Source of the DNA: a marine gamma proteobacterium HTCC2089
GTDB lineage: Bacteria > Pseudomonadota > Gammaproteobacteria > Pseudomonadales > Azotimanducaceae
Assembly: GCA_905182905.1 (NCBI GenBank)
Contig: CAJJDH010000023.1
Location: 1 to 47,689 of the forward strand
DNA: 47,689 bases
Direction of reading: 5' to 3'
A program made the translations under genes and the position numbers. The notes under the pieces were generated by a model, which searched no databases, was not told the DNA's origin, and was given only the letters and a program-made list of their open reading frames with translations. The stretch's first letter is position 1. Each line of letters begins with the position of its first letter. Below are positions 39,974 through 47,689 of the stretch, piece after piece.

Positions 39974-40852
39974 CTATTCCTGCAGAGCGCGTTGGTACTC
40001 TTCAATGCGTTTGAGGTGACCATCCACATTAGTCTCGCCGGCATTATGAGTGGCTACCGCTAAATGCGTACAACCCATACTTTGCCAGGCTTTGGCGTGT
40101 TTGACCCAACGGTCCGCATCGCCGCCCGCATATTGCGCTTGGGCTTGTATACCGAAACCGTCAAAGCTCATACCAACGTCCTCTCGCTTTGCCTTTATGT
40201 GATCTAGGCATGCTTGGGCTTTCTCATTTGCGCCCATTAAGGGGATCCATCCATCGCCTAGCCTAGCGGTACGATCAAGCAGCGCTGGCGCTGACCCGCC
40301 AAACCAAACGGGGATTGGCTTGCTTGGGCGCGGGTTAATACTGGCTTTATCAATACGATGATATTCACCGGTGTAGTCAATTGAATCCTCATTCCATAGC
40401 TTGCGCATAACTTCTACTTGCTCCGTCTGGCGACGGCCGCGGTTGGTGAAGGTTTCGTTAAGGCCGGTGTATTCAACTTGGTTCCAACCCACACCAACAC
40501 CTAGGCGAAAGCGGTTGTTTGATAATAGTGCTACTTGGGCCGCTTGCTTAGCCACCAGCACGGTTTGCCTTTGCGGCAAAATCATAACCGTGGTGATCAT
40601 TTCCAATTTTTCAGTCACGCCCGCGATAAATGCGAAGGTGGTGAGGGGTTCGTGAAAAGCCACATCCTTGTCGTAAGGCCCGCGAAAACCGCCTTCTCTG
40701 TCCGGATCTGCACCTAATACATGATCGTAAATAAGCAGGTGACTTATGCCCAATGCTTCGACCCCTTGGGCGTACGCTTTGATTGCGCTGGGGTCTGTGC
40801 CTATTTCGTTGTGGGGAAATACCGCACCGATTTGCATATCTTTCAGATCCAT
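39974..40852 (-). CDS. LLM-class F420-dependent oxidoreductase
   Basis: This is the second luciferase-like TIM-barrel enzyme in the window (292 residues), of the same TIGR03619-type group as the one at 37480. MQIGAVFPHNEIG, FAFIAGVTEKLEMITTVMILPQRQTVLVAKQAAQVALLSNNRFRLGVGVGWNQVEY and WFGGSAPALLDRTARLGDGWIPL line up with it segment by segment. The two proteins are nevertheless clearly diverged, so this is not a recent duplication. Cofactor F420 or FMN; substrate unknown. A purine-rich ribosome site (AGGAGAGGAAG) precedes ATG 40852; an internal ATG five codons on is also possible. It is divergent from ileS. Confidence 0.88.
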   Translation of the reverse strand: MDLKDMQIGAVFPHNEIGTDPSAIKAYAQGVEALGISHLLIYDHVLGADPDREGGFRGPYDKDVAFHEPLTTFAFIAGVTEKLEMITTVMILPQRQTVLVAKQAAQVALLSNNRFRLGVGVGWNQVEYTGLNETFTNRGRRQTEQVEVMRKLWNEDSIDYTGEYHRIDKASINPRPSKPIPVWFGGSAPALLDRTARLGDGWIPLMGANEKAQACLDHIKAKREDVGMSFDGFGIQAQAQYAGGDADRWVKHAKAWQSMGCTHLAVATHNAGETNVDGHLKRIEEYQRALQE

Positions 40853-40904
40853 CTATTTCTTCCTCTCCTGTAAGGCTTAAAAGGCTATCCTTTTCCTCAT
40901 CAAG

Positions 40905-40937
40905 TTGACAGCATCCTGCGGCCAAAATAGGTACTAT
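40905..40937 (+). promoter_or_regulatory. Possible ileS promoter
   Basis: A perfect -35 TTGACA (40905-40910) lies upstream of TACTAT (40932-40937), but the 21-base spacer is too long for a standard promoter. Weak support. Confidence 0.25.
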
Positions 40938-40970
40938 AAGCGCCGAATTTCAGCCACAGAATATCTATAC

Positions 40971-43900
40971 ATGTCCGAGTCATCTGATAGCGCCCAATTC
41001 TCCTTTGTTGAGATGGAACACGACATTCTCAAATTTTGGGAAGATACCGGGGCATTTCAAAAATCCCTCAACAATACTAAAGGTAAAAAGCCGTACATTT
41101 TTTACGATGGTCCGCCGTTTGCCACGGGCTTACCGCATCACGGTCACCTTGTAGCCAGTACCATAAAAGACATAGTGCCGCGTTACTGGACCATGAAGGG
41201 TCGCTACGTCATGCGACGTTTTGGTTGGGATTGCCATGGTTTACCTATTGAGCATGAGATAGACAAACAGCTGGGTTTGTCCGCTCAGGAAGCGGTAGAA
41301 AAACTCGGTGTTGCTGGTTACAACGACGAATGCCGCGGTATTGTGCAACGGTACGTTGGCGAGTGGCGCAATACCATTACCCGTATTGGTCGCTGGATTG
41401 ATTTTGATAATGACTACAAAACCATGGACGTTTGGTACATGGAGTCTTTGTGGTGGGTGTTTAAGCAGCTTTGGGATAAAGGGCTGATTTATCAAGGTGT
41501 GAAGGTCATGCCTATTTCTACCGCGCTCGGCACGCCCTTGGCTAACTTTGAAGCCACGTCTAATTATCAGGATGTACAGGATCCGGCTGTGACAGTACTG
41601 CTGAAGTTACTTGATGAAGACGCACATTTAGCTATTTGGACCACTACGCCATGGACGCTGCCGTCTAATCTAGCGGTATGTGTCGGCGCTGATATTGAGT
41701 ATTCCTTGGTCGTTGATCCTGCAACCGGAGAAAAGATTTATTTGGCAACCGAGCGGTTGTCGCACTATCAGGGTGACGGCGAGTTTGAGGTGGTGAAAAC
41801 CGTTCAAGGCGCTGAGTTAGTAGGCCTGAAATACGCACCTATCTTTGATTACTTTGCAGATATGCGAGATCAGGGTGCTTTTGTTGTTGTCAGCGATGGC
41901 TACGTGAGCACTGAAAGTGGGACAGGACTTGTGCATCAAGCACCGGCATTTGGTGAGGACGATAACCGGGTGTTACGTGCTAACGGCATTGAAGCGTTTG
42001 TCTGCCCAGTAACTATTCATGGTGAATTTACGGATGAGGTGCCCGAATTTGCTGGGCAATATGTCAAGGCCGCGGATAAAGAGATCATCACCAAACTCAA
42101 GGCGCAAGGTGTGCTTTATCGCCAAGAGGTAATTCAGCACAGCTACCCGTATTGCTACCGCTCCGATACGCCGTTGATCTATCGCGCAATTCCTTCTTGG
42201 TATGTGGAAGTGACCTCTATCAAGGATAAGTTGCTCAAGGCTAATGAGCAGATCAACTGGGTGCCTGGTCACATTAAGGAAGGCCGGTTTGGAAACTGGT
42301 TGGAAGGTTCCATTGACTGGTCAATATCGCGTAACCGAGTTTGGGGTACACCCTTACCGGTATGGATTAACGATGTTTCGGATAAAGCTCTGTGCATAGG
42401 TTCTATTGAAGAGTTAGAACAATACTCTGGCGTCAAGGTAGATGACTTGCACCGCGAGCATGTAGATGGACTGACCTTTAGCGTTGCTGGTGAAGAGGGT
42501 ACTTATCGTCGTATTGAGGAGGTCCTAGATTGCTGGTTTGAGTCTGGTTCCATGCCTTACGCTCAATTGCATTACCCCTTTGAGAATAAGGAAGTATTTG
42601 AAGCGGGTTTCCCAGCTGAATTTATTGCCGAGGGCTTAGACCAAACCCGTGGGTGGTTCTATACATTAACCGTATTGGCAGCCGCACTGCATGACAAGCC
42701 TGCATTTAGAAATGTCATTGTTAACGGCATGGTCATGGCTGAAGACGGCAAAAAAATGTCAAAAAGCCTGCGCAACTACACGCCCCCAGATGATCTGATG
42801 GAAGCCTACGGAGCAGACGCTTTGCGCCTGTACTGTATTAACTCAGGTTTAGTGCGCGGCGAAGAGCAGCGTTTTGCAGATGCGGGTGTACGGGATATGG
42901 TGCGCCGGGCATTACTGCCTTGGTACAACGCGTTTTCCTTTCTGCGCACATACGCTGCAATAGACGGCTGGTCACCCGATAAAGGGCTGCATTTTGGTGA
43001 TAACGTTTTGGATCAATGGATTCAATCTCGTTTACAAACGCTGAAGAGCAATATCGCTGAGGAAATGGAAGGCTATAAGCTCTACAACGTTGTGCCGCAA
43101 TTATTTGCGTTTATTGAAGATTTAACTAATTGGTACATTCGCCTGAATCGCGGTCGTTTCTGGGGTGAAGAAATCACCGCTGATAAGATTGCCGCCTACA
43201 GTACGCTTTACGAAGTGTTGCTCGAGCTGGCTCAGGTCATGGCACCATTCACGCCGTTTATTTCTGAGCATTTATTCCAGTCCTTAGAGCGCTTGGCGGG
43301 ACGAGCGCCAAGCCCAGAGTCGGTGCACTTGTGTGACTACCCGATGGCAGACGAACAAAAGGTCAAACCCACTCTAGAAGTTGCCGTTGACCGAATGCAG
43401 CAGGTGATTTTGCTTGGGCGACAAAAGCGCGAGGAAGTCAAAATTGGCCTGCGCACGCCTTTAGCAAGTTTGACCATCATTAATCGTGATGAAGCATTGT
43501 TAGACGACATGCGTTTGCTTGAAAGCTATGTACGCGATGAGCTGAATGTGCAACAGGTACATTACTCTGCGAATGAGTCCGACTACATCGAGTTGCAGGC
43601 CAAGGCCAATTTTCCAATGTTGGGCAAACGTCTTGGTAAACGCATGAAGGCATTTGCTGCACAGATTAGTGCACTGTCTCCAGATGATATTTCTACATTG
43701 CAGGCCCAAGGCAGTATTAGCCTTGAAGCTAATGGCGATACGGAAGTCTTTAGTAATGAAGAGATCCAAGTTCAGCAGCAAGCTAAGCCGGGTACCAATA
43801 CGGTATCAAACAGTCAGATTAGCTTGGATCTAGATTGCACGTTGACCCCAGAGTTAATCCGCGGTGGCTATGCGCGTGAGGTGGTTAACCGTATTCAGCG

Positions 43901-44117
43901 TGGTCGTAAAGACAGTGGTTTTGCCGTCACAGACCGCATCACCGTAATCTACTTTGCAGAGGGCGATTTAGCTCAGGCTATTGAAGAGCATCAGGATTAT
44001 ATTATGCGCGAAACACTGTGCTTGGATTTACAGAAGGCTTGGGTTGCTCAGCCAAATGTGGCGGAGATAGATGGTGCAACGATGAGTTACGAAATGAAGC
44101 AAGTGAGCACGATCTAG
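40971..44117 (+). CDS. ileS: Isoleucyl-tRNA synthetase, type 2 (eukaryote-like)
   Basis: IleRS charges tRNA-Ile with isoleucine and edits valine. The class I HxGH signature is H56-H59 in FATGLPHHGHLVAST, and KMSKS is at about 595-599. Type 2 character is shown by GPPFATGLPHHGH, where the E. coli-type enzyme has a PPYANGxxHIGH form, and by the absence of the C-terminal zinc-finger cysteines of type 1. Its 1048 residues fit IleS2. Type 2 enzymes are known for low sensitivity to mupirocin. I chose ATG 40971 because the family begins there; the upstream in-frame ATG (40905) covers a TTGACA promoter-like element. The stop is 42 bases before the Rieske gene. Confidence 0.95.
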   Translation: MSESSDSAQFSFVEMEHDILKFWEDTGAFQKSLNNTKGKKPYIFYDGPPFATGLPHHGHLVASTIKDIVPRYWTMKGRYVMRRFGWDCHGLPIEHEIDKQLGLSAQEAVEKLGVAGYNDECRGIVQRYVGEWRNTITRIGRWIDFDNDYKTMDVWYMESLWWVFKQLWDKGLIYQGVKVMPISTALGTPLANFEATSNYQDVQDPAVTVLLKLLDEDAHLAIWTTTPWTLPSNLAVCVGADIEYSLVVDPATGEKIYLATERLSHYQGDGEFEVVKTVQGAELVGLKYAPIFDYFADMRDQGAFVVVSDGYVSTESGTGLVHQAPAFGEDDNRVLRANGIEAFVCPVTIHGEFTDEVPEFAGQYVKAADKEIITKLKAQGVLYRQEVIQHSYPYCYRSDTPLIYRAIPSWYVEVTSIKDKLLKANEQINWVPGHIKEGRFGNWLEGSIDWSISRNRVWGTPLPVWINDVSDKALCIGSIEELEQYSGVKVDDLHREHVDGLTFSVAGEEGTYRRIEEVLDCWFESGSMPYAQLHYPFENKEVFEAGFPAEFIAEGLDQTRGWFYTLTVLAAALHDKPAFRNVIVNGMVMAEDGKKMSKSLRNYTPPDDLMEAYGADALRLYCINSGLVRGEEQRFADAGVRDMVRRALLPWYNAFSFLRTYAAIDGWSPDKGLHFGDNVLDQWIQSRLQTLKSNIAEEMEGYKLYNVVPQLFAFIEDLTNWYIRLNRGRFWGEEITADKIAAYSTLYEVLLELAQVMAPFTPFISEHLFQSLERLAGRAPSPESVHLCDYPMADEQKVKPTLEVAVDRMQQVILLGRQKREEVKIGLRTPLASLTIINRDEALLDDMRLLESYVRDELNVQQVHYSANESDYIELQAKANFPMLGKRLGKRMKAFAAQISALSPDDISTLQAQGSISLEANGDTEVFSNEEIQVQQQAKPGTNTVSNSQISLDLDCTLTPELIRGGYAREVVNRIQRGRKDSGFAVTDRITVIYFAEGDLAQAIEEHQDYIMRETLCLDLQKAWVAQPNVAEIDGATMSYEMKQVSTI

Positions 44118-44159
44118 AATGCTCTGGTTGCAGCGGATAAATATGATTGAAGGTAAGTC

Positions 44160-44993
44160 GTGAAATATACGTTTCAGCCTGCTCAAGCAGATAATCAAGT
44201 AAATCATGTGGGCAGCTATCGCCGGCGTCTGCCGGTGAGTGTAGAGCGGATGTATGAGAACACGCTGGATTGGGCGCATTTGCCTCACCTTCATGACAGC
44301 AGTTTTGCTGAGATTCGCTGCTTAGATGCCGGTGCTTGGGGCTGGCGTGCAGAAGTAGGTGGCGTTCAATCAGCTAATGGTTCTACTGCTACTCCAAAGA
44401 GTTTGATTGAGCTGACGTTGGATAGACAAGCGCGACGTTGGATTACGCGAAATATAGAAGGGCCGAATAAAGGCGCTGAGATTTGGACCCACGTGTTTAT
44501 TGAAGGCCCGCAGATCCTCGATATTGTTGTAGATTTCTATGTGCCGGATGTTCCAGTTGAAGCGAAAGACAAAGTAGGCATGGCGTATGCGACTGCCTAT
44601 GAGCAATTGTACGATGAAGATGTAGCCATGATGGTTGAGCGGCAGCAACAATTAGACCTTCGGGTAGAAGGCTTTGATCGCTCAGAAACCCTACGGTTGG
44701 GGGCCGCGTCAGAACTAATCCTTCCAACTCTTGTGAAGTTGTCTCAACGCAGTTTTGTGTTGAACCAAATCGCAGGGGAGTGGGTAGCCTACTCTGCCCA
44801 ATGCCCGCATCAAATGGGGCCGCTAATAGACTCGCCAATTGTCGAAGGTGAAGTACGCTGCCCTTGGCATGGTTTCACCTTCAATGTTCGTACTGGTGAA
44901 TGTACTAGCGGCGCTGTCTGCCAACTCACCGAAGCGCCCTTGGTCGCTGAAGCTTCTGATGGCACTTTGCTGCTGAAATGGGCAGACACTTAG
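44160..44993 (+). CDS. Rieske-type oxygenase with reversed domain order (catalytic domain first)
   Basis: The C-terminal third has a Rieske [2Fe-2S] site with C215-x-H217 in AQCPHQMG and C234-x2-H237 in VRCPWHGF. The N-terminal part resembles the catalytic domain of Rieske oxygenases. NTLDWAHLPHLH gives D37-x2-H40-x4-H45, the two-His mononuclear-iron motif with its bridging Asp. LYDEDVAMMVERQQ around D154 matches the region that supplies the third, acidic ligand. Normal Rieske oxygenases have the Rieske domain first, so this protein looks circularly permuted. It would need an external reductase, none of which is adjacent. It follows ileS by 42 bases and is convergent with a crotonase gene. 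The reaction is unknown. Confidence 0.82.
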   Translation: MKYTFQPAQADNQVNHVGSYRRRLPVSVERMYENTLDWAHLPHLHDSSFAEIRCLDAGAWGWRAEVGGVQSANGSTATPKSLIELTLDRQARRWITRNIEGPNKGAEIWTHVFIEGPQILDIVVDFYVPDVPVEAKDKVGMAYATAYEQLYDEDVAMMVERQQQLDLRVEGFDRSETLRLGAASELILPTLVKLSQRSFVLNQIAGEWVAYSAQCPHQMGPLIDSPIVEGEVRCPWHGFTFNVRTGECTSGAVCQLTEAPLVAEASDGTLLLKWADT

Positions 44994-45018
44994 TAATTTG
45001 CCTTTGTCAGCAGCGCGT

Positions 45019-45831
45019 CTAGTTGCCGCGATAATCCCCCGGTTCTTTACTGAAATGTGCCTCAATAGCTGCGGCTCTGTCCTGGGTCCCTGCGCTGAGT
45101 AAATTTTGATCGCTGTCCATATGCATAATTGCGTGGTTCAGTGCATTGGCAAGTTGATTGGTTGACTGTTTAATCATCTGCGCCGCAATTGGGGGTTTGC
45201 TCGCGTAAAAGTCCGCCATCTTCTTTGCTGCGATCGTGAGCTCTTGAGGTTCGACTAGTTCGTCTAATATTCCCCATTGTAATAATTGTGCTGCGGTTAA
45301 CCGCTCACCGCCGACAACTAGTCTCTTTGCCCGAGCGGGTCCAACTAAGTTGAGAATAAGCGGCAGACTCTTCCACATCAAATTGATCCCAAGGTCAATT
45401 TCAGGGTATTGCATAAAGCAGTCATGAGCGCCCACCCTAAAATCACACGCGGTGGCAATGCATGCACCGCCACCCATTGCCGCGCCGTGCCATGCGGCTA
45501 TGGTAATTTGATCAATACCCAATATCGCCTCTATTGCACGTTCGCCTATGCGCGCTCTTCTGCGCATTTGTATGAGTGGTAATGGCGGGTCTTGTTTCGG
45601 TTCCGATAGGTCTGCTCCTGAGGAGAAGTGACTGCCGTTACCGTTGAAAATTACAACTCTGGTTTCACTATCGTCGCGAAGTGCTAATGCTGAGGTTTCG
45701 ATTTCCGCTAAGTGGTCGTAGCTTAGGGCGTTGGCTTTATCTGGCCTATTCAAGGTTATCCAGGTTATGTGGCCGTCACGGGAAACTGCTAGGTGTTGGT
45801 ACGCGGGTGTAGTCTGCTGATTTTTTTTCAT
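45019..45831 (-). CDS. Enoyl-CoA hydratase/isomerase (crotonase) family protein
   Basis: The 270-residue crotonase has WITLNRPDKANALSYDHLAEIE, then FNGNGSHFSSGADLSEP as the first oxyanion-hole loop. AAWHGAAMGGGACIATACDFRVGAHDCFMQYPEIDLGINLMW carries the second oxyanion hole and the catalytic Glu region. TQDRAAAIEAHFSKEPGDY is the usual C-terminal end. It probably hydrates or isomerises an acyl-CoA; substrate unknown. It is diverged from the crotonase at 34963. ATG 45831 lies 36 bases after the minus-strand terminator of the small-RNA candidate at 45866-45975, so it needs its own promoter or readthrough from that unit. Confidence 0.9.
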   Translation of the reverse strand: MKKNQQTTPAYQHLAVSRDGHITWITLNRPDKANALSYDHLAEIETSALALRDDSETRVVIFNGNGSHFSSGADLSEPKQDPPLPLIQMRRRARIGERAIEAILGIDQITIAAWHGAAMGGGACIATACDFRVGAHDCFMQYPEIDLGINLMWKSLPLILNLVGPARAKRLVVGGERLTAAQLLQWGILDELVEPQELTIAAKKMADFYASKPPIAAQMIKQSTNQLANALNHAIMHMDSDQNLLSAGTQDRAAAIEAHFSKEPGDYRGN

Positions 45832-45865
45832 CTACGGATAGTAGCGCAAGTCAGAAAAAAGGCAT

Positions 45866-45975
45866 TAAAAAAGCGGAGGACTTTGCAGTCCTCCGCTTTG
45901 AAGAAGGAGACACTCGAAGAGGGGAGGGGGAGAGGAGTATCGAGTGTCTCTTTGTCAGTGCTTTCGCTACCGACA
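45866..45975 (-). ncRNA. Candidate small RNA A with anti-Shine-Dalgarno hairpin loop
   Basis: On the minus strand a perfect 11-bp stem (GAGACACTCGA at 45940-45950 with TCGAGTGTCTC at 45907-45917, minus-strand reading) encloses a 22-base loop that is almost purely C and U, including CTCCTCTCCCCCTCCCC. A short upstream stem (around TGTCGGT and ACTGACA) precedes it. A perfect 13-bp terminator follows. A promoter at 45982-46010 would start transcription near 45975, giving about 110 nt. The second copy at 46211-46289 has the same order of parts with different stem sequence but conserved pairing, which is strong evidence of a selected RNA. I do not recognise a named family. Confidence 0.68.
45867..45899 (-). 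terminator. Rho-independent terminator of small RNA A
   Basis: Minus-strand AAAGCGGAGGACT pairs over 13 bases with AGTCCTCCGCTTT around GCAA, followed by T's (45869-45867). The orientation requires a minus-strand transcript arriving from the right, where there is no protein gene. Confidence 0.85.
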
Positions 45976-45981
45976 AAAAGA

Positions 45982-46010
45982 ATGTTACCTAAGGTTACAC
46001 AATAGTGCAA
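45982..46010 (-). promoter_or_regulatory. Promoter of small RNA A
   Basis: On the minus strand TTGCAC (46005-46010), a 17-base spacer and TAACAT (45982-45987) form a sigma-70-like promoter. GTTACTT-N2-AGTTGCA around the -35 is shared with the promoter of copy B. Confidence 0.62.
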
Positions 46011-46210
46011 CTATAAGTAACAAATTTATTTTACCCGCCGAAAAGCGATATTTTGAGTAGATAAAAGCGCGTTTCTGAAGAGTATTCTGGCCATATGTGG
46101 AAAGTAAAGATCGGATGAAGTTTGGCAGGCCAACAAGTTTAGGTTAGTAAATTTTGGAGGCACATTGCTGCAGTGGGCTTTATAGGAATGCTGGGGAAAA
46201 AGTTTGAGAG

Positions 46211-46289
46211 AAAAACAGAGAGGCATCCGAAGGAGGAGGGGAGAGGGGTTTCGGATGTCTCTCTTATCGATGGTTACTGCCACCGGTTG
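46211..46289 (-). ncRNA. Candidate small RNA B, paralogue of small RNA A
   Basis: On the minus strand a 14-bp stem with one wobble pair (46250-46263 with 46218-46231) encloses an 18-base loop (46232-46249) of only C and U after the first base. The loop ends CCCCTCCTCC, complementary to GGAGGAGG. The stem is followed at once by TGTTTTT, so this hairpin also serves as terminator. The promoter at 46296-46323 puts the start near 46289, giving about 79 nt. Compared with copy A, arm sequences differ while pairing is preserved, and promoter boxes match. It lies 235 bases upstream of copy A on the same strand. Confidence 0.68.
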
Positions 46290-46295
46290 AAGAGC

Positions 46296-46323
46296 ATGTT
46301 ACGCCTGGTAACAAGAAATGCAA
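46296..46323 (-). promoter_or_regulatory. Promoter of small RNA B
   Basis: On the minus strand TTGCAT (46318-46323), a 16-base spacer and TAACAT (46296-46301). The -10 hexamer is identical to that of copy A, and GTTACTT precedes the -35 in both. Confidence 0.62.
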
Positions 46324-46331
46324 CTCAAAGT

Positions 46332-46355
46332 AACGCAACGCTGTGTTGCGTTTTT
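46332..46355 (+). terminator. Hairpin with T-run just upstream of small RNA B promoter
   Basis: AACGCAAC (46332-46339) pairs with GTTGCGTT (46345-46352), followed by T to 46355 on the plus strand. It could terminate a plus-strand transcript across the small-RNA region, or act as a dyad controlling the small RNA B promoter. Confidence 0.5.
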
Positions 46356-46366
46356 GCCTCACTATG

Positions 46367-46384
46367 CCACTATATGCATAGTGG
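46367..46384. promoter_or_regulatory. Inverted repeat, candidate LysR operator
   Basis: CCACTAT and ATAGTGG form a perfect 7-bp dyad around ATGC, 88 bases upstream of the LysR start and 44 bases upstream of the small RNA B -35. LysR proteins usually autoregulate from such sites. Confidence 0.45.
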
Positions 46385-46472
46385 TGCCTAATTTCAGCTA
46401 AGCGGGTGAGATTACCTTTTAGCGGGGCGAAAGAAAGAAGGTGGTTAAACGGTATGCTTGTGAGGTGTTTGC

Positions 46473-47390
46473 GTGGATTGGGATGACTATAAGTATTTTA
46501 CCGCTTTATCCTCTACTTTATCGGTACGCGGGGCTGCTGATGCTTTGGGGGTTAATGCCTCTACAGTGAGTCGAAGATTAGATCTCTTTGAGCGGCGCCT
46601 GGGCGTCACTTTATTCACGCGATCAGCTAAAGGGCTGGTTATCACTCCTGAAGGTGCGGAGGTGGTGACCAGAGTAAAGTCTGTAGCAACAGACCTAGAC
46701 GATATTGAAGGTCACCTTATTGGCCGAGACAAAAAATTATCTGGGATCGTGCGGATTGTGATTCCAGAAGTACTGGCTCTGAGTTTGTTGATTCAAGAGT
46801 TACCCAGATTCCAAAAGAGCTATCCAGATATCGAATTACACATTTTACCGAGTCATCAAGGTGCAGATGTGGGGCGGCGTGAAGCGGACATAACCATGCA
46901 TGTGACTAATCAGCCAACTGATTCATTAGTGGGTAGGGTGCTGGCTCCGATCGCGGTTGCAGCCTATGGCGCAGAGTCGTTAATTGCTCGACTAGGCGAA
47001 AACAGTGCCAGCGCAGATCTCAATAAGCTGCCCTGGGTGGATTGGCTTGGGGACAGCGAAATGTCACAAACCTGTAGAACACTGCTTAAGAGCCATGTCC
47101 CCGATACGCCGGTAAGCATCAGGACTCATAGTTTATTGTTACACCTTGAAGCCGCGCGAAAAGGGTTGGGTCTAGCGTTTCTGCCGTGCATTCTTGCCGA
47201 GTCTGACCCGTTGCTGCAACGCATTGATATGATTAAACCGACTTTAGGGCCGCCAATGTGGATGTTGGTCCACCCAGATTTACGTCATACTCTGCGCATT
47301 ACCGTTTTCATTGAATTCGTTCGCGATGTCTTTTCTCGGCGCAGCCATGAGTTACTTGGTGGAGCGATGCTAGAACTCGGCAAAGGCTAA
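46473..47390 (+). CDS. LysR-family transcriptional regulator
   Basis: This 305-residue regulator has an N-terminal winged helix-turn-helix (LSVRGAADALGVNASTVSRRLDLFERRLGVTLFTR, about residues 17-51) and a periplasmic-binding-protein-like effector domain. It has the MDWDDYKYFTAL start of the subgroup that often regulates a neighbouring single gene. The GTG start at 46473 is preceded by GAGG (46462-46465). The downstream gene, an alpha/beta hydrolase, begins 28 bases after its stop on the same strand and may be co-transcribed. A dyad at 46367-46384 is a plausible autoregulatory site. The effector is unknown. Confidence 0.92.
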   Translation: MDWDDYKYFTALSSTLSVRGAADALGVNASTVSRRLDLFERRLGVTLFTRSAKGLVITPEGAEVVTRVKSVATDLDDIEGHLIGRDKKLSGIVRIVIPEVLALSLLIQELPRFQKSYPDIELHILPSHQGADVGRREADITMHVTNQPTDSLVGRVLAPIAVAAYGAESLIARLGENSASADLNKLPWVDWLGDSEMSQTCRTLLKSHVPDTPVSIRTHSLLLHLEAARKGLGLAFLPCILAESDPLLQRIDMIKPTLGPPMWMLVHPDLRHTLRITVFIEFVRDVFSRRSHELLGGAMLELGKG

Positions 47391-47418
47391 TCTCAAACGT
47401 AGTATTTTAGGACCCTAA

Positions 47419-47689
47419 ATGTCATCCGACTCCCTATTTCTTGCCGCAACATCGCAGAATTTTTTCTCGCAACGTCTTCGATTGCACTATGTTGAATGGG
47501 GTTCGCGAGACAACCCAACCATAGTGTTGGTGCACGGCATTCAAGACCATTGTCGTACATGGGATGATATGGCCCAGCGCATTGGAGAGTATGCTGGGGA
47601 CTACCACATTGTGGCACCAGATCTTCGCGGTCATGGTGATTCCGAGTGGGTAACGGGCTCCGGTTACCAATATCTTGATTATGTTTACG
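47419..47689 (+). CDS. Alpha/beta hydrolase, 3'-truncated by the window edge
   Basis: An open frame begins at ATG 47419 and runs off the window without a stop. The translation includes LRLHYVEWG, then TIVLVHGIQDHCRTWDDMA, which holds the HG oxyanion-hole loop, and VAPDLRGHGDSEW. These are the first blocks of the alpha/beta hydrolase fold; the nucleophile elbow and the catalytic His lie beyond the edge. The start follows the LysR stop by 28 bases, so the two probably share a transcript. The substrate cannot be named. Confidence 0.85.
   Translation, partial: MSSDSLFLAATSQNFFSQRLRLHYVEWGSRDNPTIVLVHGIQDHCRTWDDMAQRIGEYAGDYHIVAPDLRGHGDSEWVTGSGYQYLDYVY

Follow-up and report, generated by a model that had tools for sequence, protein, structure and literature searches.

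A 641-base stretch between a LysR-type regulator gene and a crotonase gene (45832-46472 of the window, by which we mean the whole 47,689-nucleotide stretch of DNA that was analysed) holds two diverged tandem copies of one unit on its minus strand, and comparison with relatives indicates that this copy A/copy B region very probably consists of LysR-linked small RNA (sRNA) genes. In our main reading, to which we assign a probability of roughly 0.62, the copies are two sibling sRNA genes with their own promoters, of which the one next to the LysR gene (copy A) is linked to that regulator, and their C/U loop would act in trans on Shine–Dalgarno (SD) regions. The gene family, the structure, the promoter and the LysR link come from comparison, whereas transcription, trans action and targets are what we infer. 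The parts of the locus are these:

46473 to 47390, plus strand: divergent gene for a LysR-type regulator (Pfam HTH_1 and LysR_substrate), the proposed regulator of copy A
46334 to 46350, unstranded: dyad C, upstream of copy A, CGCAACA-CAG-CGTTGCG, one mismatch; proposed LysR operator
46296 to 46323, minus strand: copy A promoter, -35 TTGCAT (46323-46318), N16, -10 TAACAT (46301-46296), from the sequence and the alignment with relatives
46297 to 46313, unstranded: dyad B of copy A, TGTTACCAGGCGTAACA, one mismatch to the pattern, overlapping the -10 hexamer
46211 to 46289, minus strand: predicted transcript of sRNA copy A (LysR side), with a 5' hairpin at 46285-46268, from the fold and a covariance match
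46217 to 46264, minus strand: copy A long hairpin, 6+8 bp with one A.C mismatch and an 18-nt loop, ACCCCUCUCCCCUCCUCC, at 46249-46232
45982 to 46010, minus strand: copy B promoter, -35 TTGCAC (46010-46005), N17, -10 TAACAT (45987-45982), from the sequence and the alignment with relatives
45983 to 45999, unstranded: dyad B of copy B, TGTAACCTTAGGTAACA, one mismatch
45866 to 45977, minus strand: predicted transcript of sRNA copy B (crotonase side), made up of a 5' hairpin (45977-45951), the long hairpin and a terminator
45907 to 45950, minus strand: copy B long hairpin, 11 bp with a 22-nt loop, UACUCCUCUCCCCCUCCCCUCU
45899-45866, minus strand: copy B terminator, 13 bp, GC-rich
45019 to 45831, minus strand: downstream crotonase/enoyl-CoA hydratase gene (Pfam ECH_1)

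A preliminary description of this DNA had proposed two diverged tandem copies on the minus strand with their own promoters, and C/U loops of 18 to 22 bases; the sequence and the alignment of the copies agree with the former, and the loops measure 18 nt in copy A and 22 nt in copy B. The copies align over promoter and RNA and are 69% identical (the aligned span being the copies plus part of their promoters). Both fold better than dinucleotide shuffles (copy A, z = -4.4; copy B, z = -9.9; 0 of 200 shuffles as good in either case), copy A into two stems and copy B into three stem-loops with one C/U loop. The stem of 11 perfect base pairs described for copy B is present; that of copy A, described as 14 bp with a wobble, folds instead as 6+8 bp around an A.C mismatch. 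Similarly, a terminator had been described for each copy, and that of copy B stands (13 bp, GC-rich), but in copy A a downstream search yielded no separate terminator, and only GTTTTT immediately 3' of the long hairpin was seen. By a strict rule, rho-independent terminators are present in 31 of 55 units, including copy B and not copy A, and many of the remaining 24 have, as judged by eye, a mismatched GC-rich hairpin followed by a T run. A generic promoter and terminator scan, whose terminator rule wants more T 3' of the stem, missed both promoters and the copy B terminator, and we regard these elements as supported because they are conserved across relatives rather than on the strength of that scan. 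Protein coding in this stretch is unlikely, because its four open reading frames of at least 60 aa have no credible Pfam match (none better than E = 0.012, all below cut-off) and because changes in loop length ignore codons.

The two copies almost certainly belong to a paralogous sRNA gene family, as judged from the conservation of stem and loop. We aligned 54 hairpins; the scan that supplied them accepted only candidates with a paired stem, CTCC and at least 80% C/U in the loop. Changes on both sides are seen in 11 of 13 stem pairs, in agreement with the earlier proposal that structure is kept rather than stem sequence; double-change cells number 77, against 21.9 in shuffles, and the covariation score was reached by none of 500 shuffles. 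When the structure is slid along the alignment, pairing drops to 31–56%, and a fold of 16 whole units gives three helices with double changes in 18 of 30 pairs. The collection rule biases upward both the stem pairing of 94.7% and the loop composition (591 C, 207 T and 1 A in columns 27-44), and CCUCC is present in 52 of the 54 loops, which had been selected for CTCC. Left out of the alignment were L130 and L131; L121 and L122, whose loops (76% C/U) the scan missed; L117, whose hairpin is that of L116; the variants L145, L148 and L149 (genus g4) and L156 (g14); and off-unit scan matches such as L044:1225, L111:3719 and L114:774.

A scan of contigs that places no bias on the loop gives the same picture. 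Here only stem arms of the GGGATAYCCG type were fixed (the arms of other members, not that of the window), with the loop set to N{14,30}; 31 stretches were found, 30 of them with a C/U-rich loop (above 80% in 28, at 76% in two) and an upstream GTTAC-N5-GTAAC dyad. Homologues of one or more of the neighbour genes accompany 29 of these 30; the exception, L214, lies near a contig end and shows none in 2.8 kb. The 31st, a Planctomycetota record, has no C/U-rich loop, no dyad and no neighbour homologue. The 30 are recorded as uncultured Gammaproteobacteria, Pseudomonadales or Proteobacteria, together with one Candidatus Azophilus lithoversatilis (in NCBI, Ca. Azotimanducaceae). Loop length and register vary among units, while the C/U make-up is kept. 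Relatives that had lost the stem pairing or the C/U loop had been named beforehand as the outcome that would speak against such a family, and among the relatives examined the family held on both counts.

To map the distribution of the family, we compared the stretch by BLASTN with 206 genomes of the bacterial family, of which 14 matched, namely 13 of the window's genus (its own included) and G162; from 12 of these 14 we read 16 units that contain the RNA in full, plus one (L041) truncated where its contig ends. At the weak matches G093:C14 and G162:C2 a hairpin scan showed no such hairpin, and G093 has the RNA at another place. The covariance-model check proposed in the preliminary description was run with two models, R1 (hairpin plus terminator) and R2 (hairpin alone, 54 sequences). 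R2 finds the hairpin in 61 of the 206 family genomes, spread over 12 of 37 genera, and in 5 of 390 genomes sampled from the order (four of the window's genus, its own included, and G244); it matches copy A at E 6e-14, and copy B is matched by both models. R1 matches 59 of the 206 family genomes, seven of them counted without locus inspection (G003, G004, G006, G008, G048, G074 and G144, the G074 unit being seen as L170). Inspection of 40 further R1 loci revealed 38 with a C/U-loop hairpin and either a neighbour gene of the window locus or the promoter dyad, and the R1 matches L130 and L131, within the genus, have a related hairpin but lack a dyad (5 mismatches at best) and show no match to the neighbour genes. 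Genomes without a match may still have the RNA, as several assemblies are incomplete and units may sit on contig ends.

Among the 390 genomes of the order sample R1 matched 23. Four belong to the window's genus; the matches in the other 19, which lie outside the family (L077-L095), were rejected as terminators or other inverted repeats with no tblastn match to the neighbour genes. The R2 match in G244 (L177) was likewise set aside as chance or an analogue, as it is intergenic, differs in its stem and has no dyad (6 mismatches at best). Variant C/U-loop hairpins that lie beside the same dyad in genera g4 (L145, L148, L149) and g14 (L156) were left out when the models were built. In Rfam 15 nothing reached the gathering threshold over window positions 40000-47689 (the best score being RF02503, 28.9 against 40, a terminator on the other strand; RF00519 suhB/mmgR scored 23.6 against a threshold of 41), nor did any family at the loci of six relatives.

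Several individual loci show variation in how the units are arranged. In G095 the unit is split over L041 and L262, which overlap by 23 bases inside a hairpin arm, an instance of how contig breaks can hide the RNA. Three tandem units occur in G125, and G106 has a pair and, where another contig begins, a third unit (these loci are among L033-L036), whereas the single unit of G091 joins a promoter of the LysR-side type to downstream sequence of the crotonase-side type, as if the copies had recombined. Near the LysR gene in L152 (g7), L158 (g22) and L171 (g26) there is a dyad B and the scan found no C/U hairpin; the RNA may there be lost or diverged. A tree of 14 units, aimed at dating the duplication, left 9 of 11 inner branches open.

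The upstream regions contain two dyads, which we denote dyad B (pattern TGTTACY-N3-RGTAACA) and dyad C (pattern CGCAACA-N3-TGTTGCG, up to 3 mismatches), and which were examined in the 51 of 55 units having at least 200 nt upstream (L035, L041, L119 and L144, with short flanks, were set aside; L117 was kept). Dyad B lies at the -10 hexamer with at most 1 mismatch in 50 of the 51 units and with at most 2 in all of them, and its distance upstream of the aligned hairpin row is never below 10 nt. Its exact pattern is found in 75 of the 206 family genomes, compared with 0 of 206 for a reversed control; the window's own genome has no exact dyad B, its two copies each being off by one base. The recurrence of dyad B suggests an undescribed regulon in this bacterial family.

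Dyad C, in turn, follows the LysR gene. Among the 51 units, which are related and do not count as independent events, both are present at 36 and neither at 12; the LysR gene stands without dyad C at two, and dyad C without the LysR gene at one (L140, near a contig start). The two former cases both belong to tandem arrays: one is copy B of the window, upstream of which there is no dyad C (the best candidate has 6 mismatches), and the other is the crotonase-side copy of L033. The 12 units without LysR (L037-L040, L042, L043, L133 and L134 in g1; L111 in g15; L120 in g17; L128 in g5; L170 in g25) nevertheless span five genera, and when their upstream regions are shuffled, 9 of 600 trials reach dyad C at 3 or fewer mismatches. 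A protein search for the LysR (E up to 1e-25) recovered it from 4 of 4 assemblies with the gene at the locus and from 0 of 8 assemblies of genus members lacking it there, three of these eight being 68, 80 and 81% complete. Because dyad C tracks the LysR gene and both go missing together, we read dyad C as the operator of the adjacent LysR, a link that the comparison makes likely. Dyad B is retained where the LysR is gone. The joint absence of LysR and dyad C at loci where the RNA and dyad B stay makes the regulator–operator link directly testable.

Dyad B was also seen at 24 further places, one of which (L262) is the other half of the G095 RNA locus. Eight of the other 23 lie beside GntR-HlyD operons (L261, L263-L267, L271 and L272; L264 and L265 are in one genome), four beside another LysR gene and a protein of the 120-aa class (L253, L254, L255, L257), and the remainder beside TetR-HlyD-RND genes (L258), an HlyD-like gene (L260) or rpoH (L256), or, for 8 of the 23, in no clear pattern. 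These neighbour names derive from one scanned representative per kind (LysR, GntR, TetR, HlyD, sigma-32), the others being named by likeness and L260 unscanned.

Tandem sRNAs with C/U loops are a known kind of RNA. CCUCC-type loops occur in the CcsR/cuckoo RNAs, and Xanthomonas, the host of the C-rich-loop sRNA sX13, belongs to another bacterial order. In Neisseria meningitidis, NmsRA and NmsRB are tandem sibling sRNAs, about 70% identical, in one intergenic region (PMC5362039). They resemble the window copies (69% identical) in this arrangement and in having UC-rich anti-SD segments in and beside a loop; they differ in having two such segments (between stem-loops 1 and 2, and in loop 2) within a fold of three stem-loops, whereas the window RNAs, with one long hairpin and one C/U loop, do not show the two anti-SD segments that mark NmsR. 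NmsRA and NmsRB are moreover tied to RelA (PMC5362039), in contrast to the LysR-linked promoter of the window, a comparison made by description only. The sX13 RNA of Xanthomonas is likewise a strongly structured gammaproteobacterial sRNA, whose C-rich loops repress mRNAs with G-rich motifs; judged by its description, it differs in having three stem-loops and 4C motifs in at least two loops (PMC3771888). GsrN of Caulobacter, too, has a conserved exposed C-rich loop, which pairs with a G-tract in an mRNA leader, and its BLASTn relatives fall within one bacterial family; compared by description only, it differs in that it raises katG expression and belongs to the sigma-EcfG stress system (PMC5869019).

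The CcsR/cuckoo RNAs of Alphaproteobacteria also place several related RNAs side by side, but CcsR1-4 arise by processing of a single RpoHI/RpoHII transcript that also covers a DUF1127 protein gene, an association often found for cuckoo RNAs (PMC10253847), whereas a TTGCA-type promoter precedes each unit of the window separately. The scanned neighbours (the flanking LysR and crotonase) and the four reading frames of at least 60 aa in the stretch include no DUF1127 protein, and with a separate promoter for each unit we see no sign of membership of the cuckoo/CcsR group. The preliminary description knew of no such RNA in this kind of gammaproteobacterium; that statement is narrowed by sX13 in Xanthomonas, and tandem anti-SD siblings are known from Neisseria as well (PMC3771888, PMC5362039). 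A search of the literature naming taxa of the group found no paper with sRNA in its title, and one on anti-SD, C-rich or sibling sRNAs found only other bacteria and subjects. As far as the literature and Rfam searches reach, an RNA family with a single long pyrimidine loop and a LysR-linked promoter is new. A bacterial family whose one named member here is filed under Ca. Azotimanducaceae thereby gains a clearly delimited sRNA family, backed by covariance and by a distinct promoter. Pyrimidine-loop sRNAs are now known from a number of lineages that lie far apart and differ in stem and regulator, which points to repeated origins of an exposed anti-SD-like loop.

We propose that a separate sigma-70-like promoter drives minus-strand transcription of each copy, and that the long hairpin of each RNA would present an unpaired loop consisting almost entirely of C and U. 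Copy A, which adjoins the LysR gene and has the additional dyad C, is probably controlled by that LysR, and copy B has only the common dyad B, so that the siblings would probably answer to different inputs with the same kind of effector. The loop would most likely pair in trans with G/A-rich mRNA stretches, foremost SD regions, and thereby lower translation. Repression by anti-SD pairing is a working guess that we favour because the loop is complementary to GGAGG-type sequence and because C-rich loops of other bacteria act by pairing. A more far-reaching version is doubtful in our estimation: because the sibling loops are alike while the LysR dyad is found only on LysR-side copies, the locus might be a LysR-controlled translation brake in which two inputs are summed into one anti-SD RNA pool, within a dyad B regulon that also takes in RND-efflux operons, further LysR genes and, in a single genome, rpoH.

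The claim in the preliminary description that many mRNAs are silenced by covering of their ribosome sites did not gain support from the target prediction proposed along with it: a CCUCC-type loop is present, but starts pair no better than matched internal sites. Loop duplex energies at 271 predicted starts were no different from those at internal sites chosen in an identical way, nor from the energies that shuffled loops gave, in a sample of little power (starts came from about 0.37 Mb of the 2.83-Mb assembly and were taken as those of the longest open reading frames, with no gene finder), so that the missing preference over controls pertains to crude starts and part of the genome. An apparent excess of targets at starts, obtained against an unmatched control, arose from the selection of starts and vanished with matched controls. 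SD usage is itself weak in the sampled genes, with a 16S-tail energy of -5.9 at starts and -5.7 at matched internal sites. Complements of the 18-nt loop across 10 genomes of the genus numbered 186, against 202 for a reversed control pattern (the units' own loci included), and none of the neighbouring genes' starts showed consistent pairing with the loop.

The absence of an excess in these target tests would also be expected if the C/U loop served to bind or titrate a protein (a pyrimidine-binding ribosomal protein or an RNA chaperone, for instance) rather than as an antisense element, and a loop with variable length and register but conserved C/U make-up would suit such a role. We nevertheless rate this explanation as unlikely, given that the C- or UC-rich loops of sX13, GsrN and NmsR act by pairing (PMC3771888, PMC5869019, PMC5362039) and that CCUCC recurs in 52 of 54 loops, themselves selected for CTCC. 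Somewhat more unlikely still is the reading in which the main pairing partners of the sRNA are a small set of specific G-rich mRNA sites, or another RNA, rather than SD regions in general, and in which it may also activate, as GsrN does for katG; the sampled genes, showing no general preference for starts, speak for it, but the roughly 0.37 Mb of the 2.83-Mb assembly read for starts yielded no specific partner.

That the hairpin and terminator act in cis on the downstream crotonase gene, as its leader or attenuator, is very improbable: the hairpin does lie 35–190 nt from a crotonase match in the window and many other loci, but that match is about 1.2–1.3 kb off in L109 (where a contig end cuts it), L111, L112 and L120; no crotonase was found in L103, L106, L107, L113-L119, L121-L123, L126, L127, L129 and L142, some of whose contigs or stretches end early; a Rieske gene match 63–132 nt from the hairpin row in L103, L113, L118, L126 and L127 leaves no room for it; up to three tandem units each have their own promoter (L033); and the crotonase start region has almost no complementarity to the loop (10 loci). 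An attenuator in which the loop pairs with a GGAGG arm of the terminator was rejected on inspection, as the terminators of other genera do not have that arm. As a separate observation, a possible -10 element, TACTAT (45843-45838), lies 6 nt before the crotonase ATG (window 45829-45843), and TAnnAT-N6-ATG is found in some relatives; from this sequence the crotonase mRNA may be leaderless.

Hairpins with pyrimidine loops were also encountered outside the family. In G000, a site outside the locus that complements the loop with 2 mismatches was discarded as a target, having proved to be another C/U-loop hairpin. L244 (G000:C31, about 4.2 kb, minus strand) is a C/U-loop hairpin with CUUCUCCCCUCUCCUCCCU in its loop, followed by a T run; its stem is unrelated to that of the window family, and it lies downstream of an open reading frame of about 50 codons that by eye resembles a small membrane protein. 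At L235 (G095:C8, about 14.2 kb), an open reading frame is followed by a GC-rich hairpin that resembles a terminator and has a CUCUCCUCCCCUCCCCCCC loop; it is possibly another pyrimidine-loop RNA.
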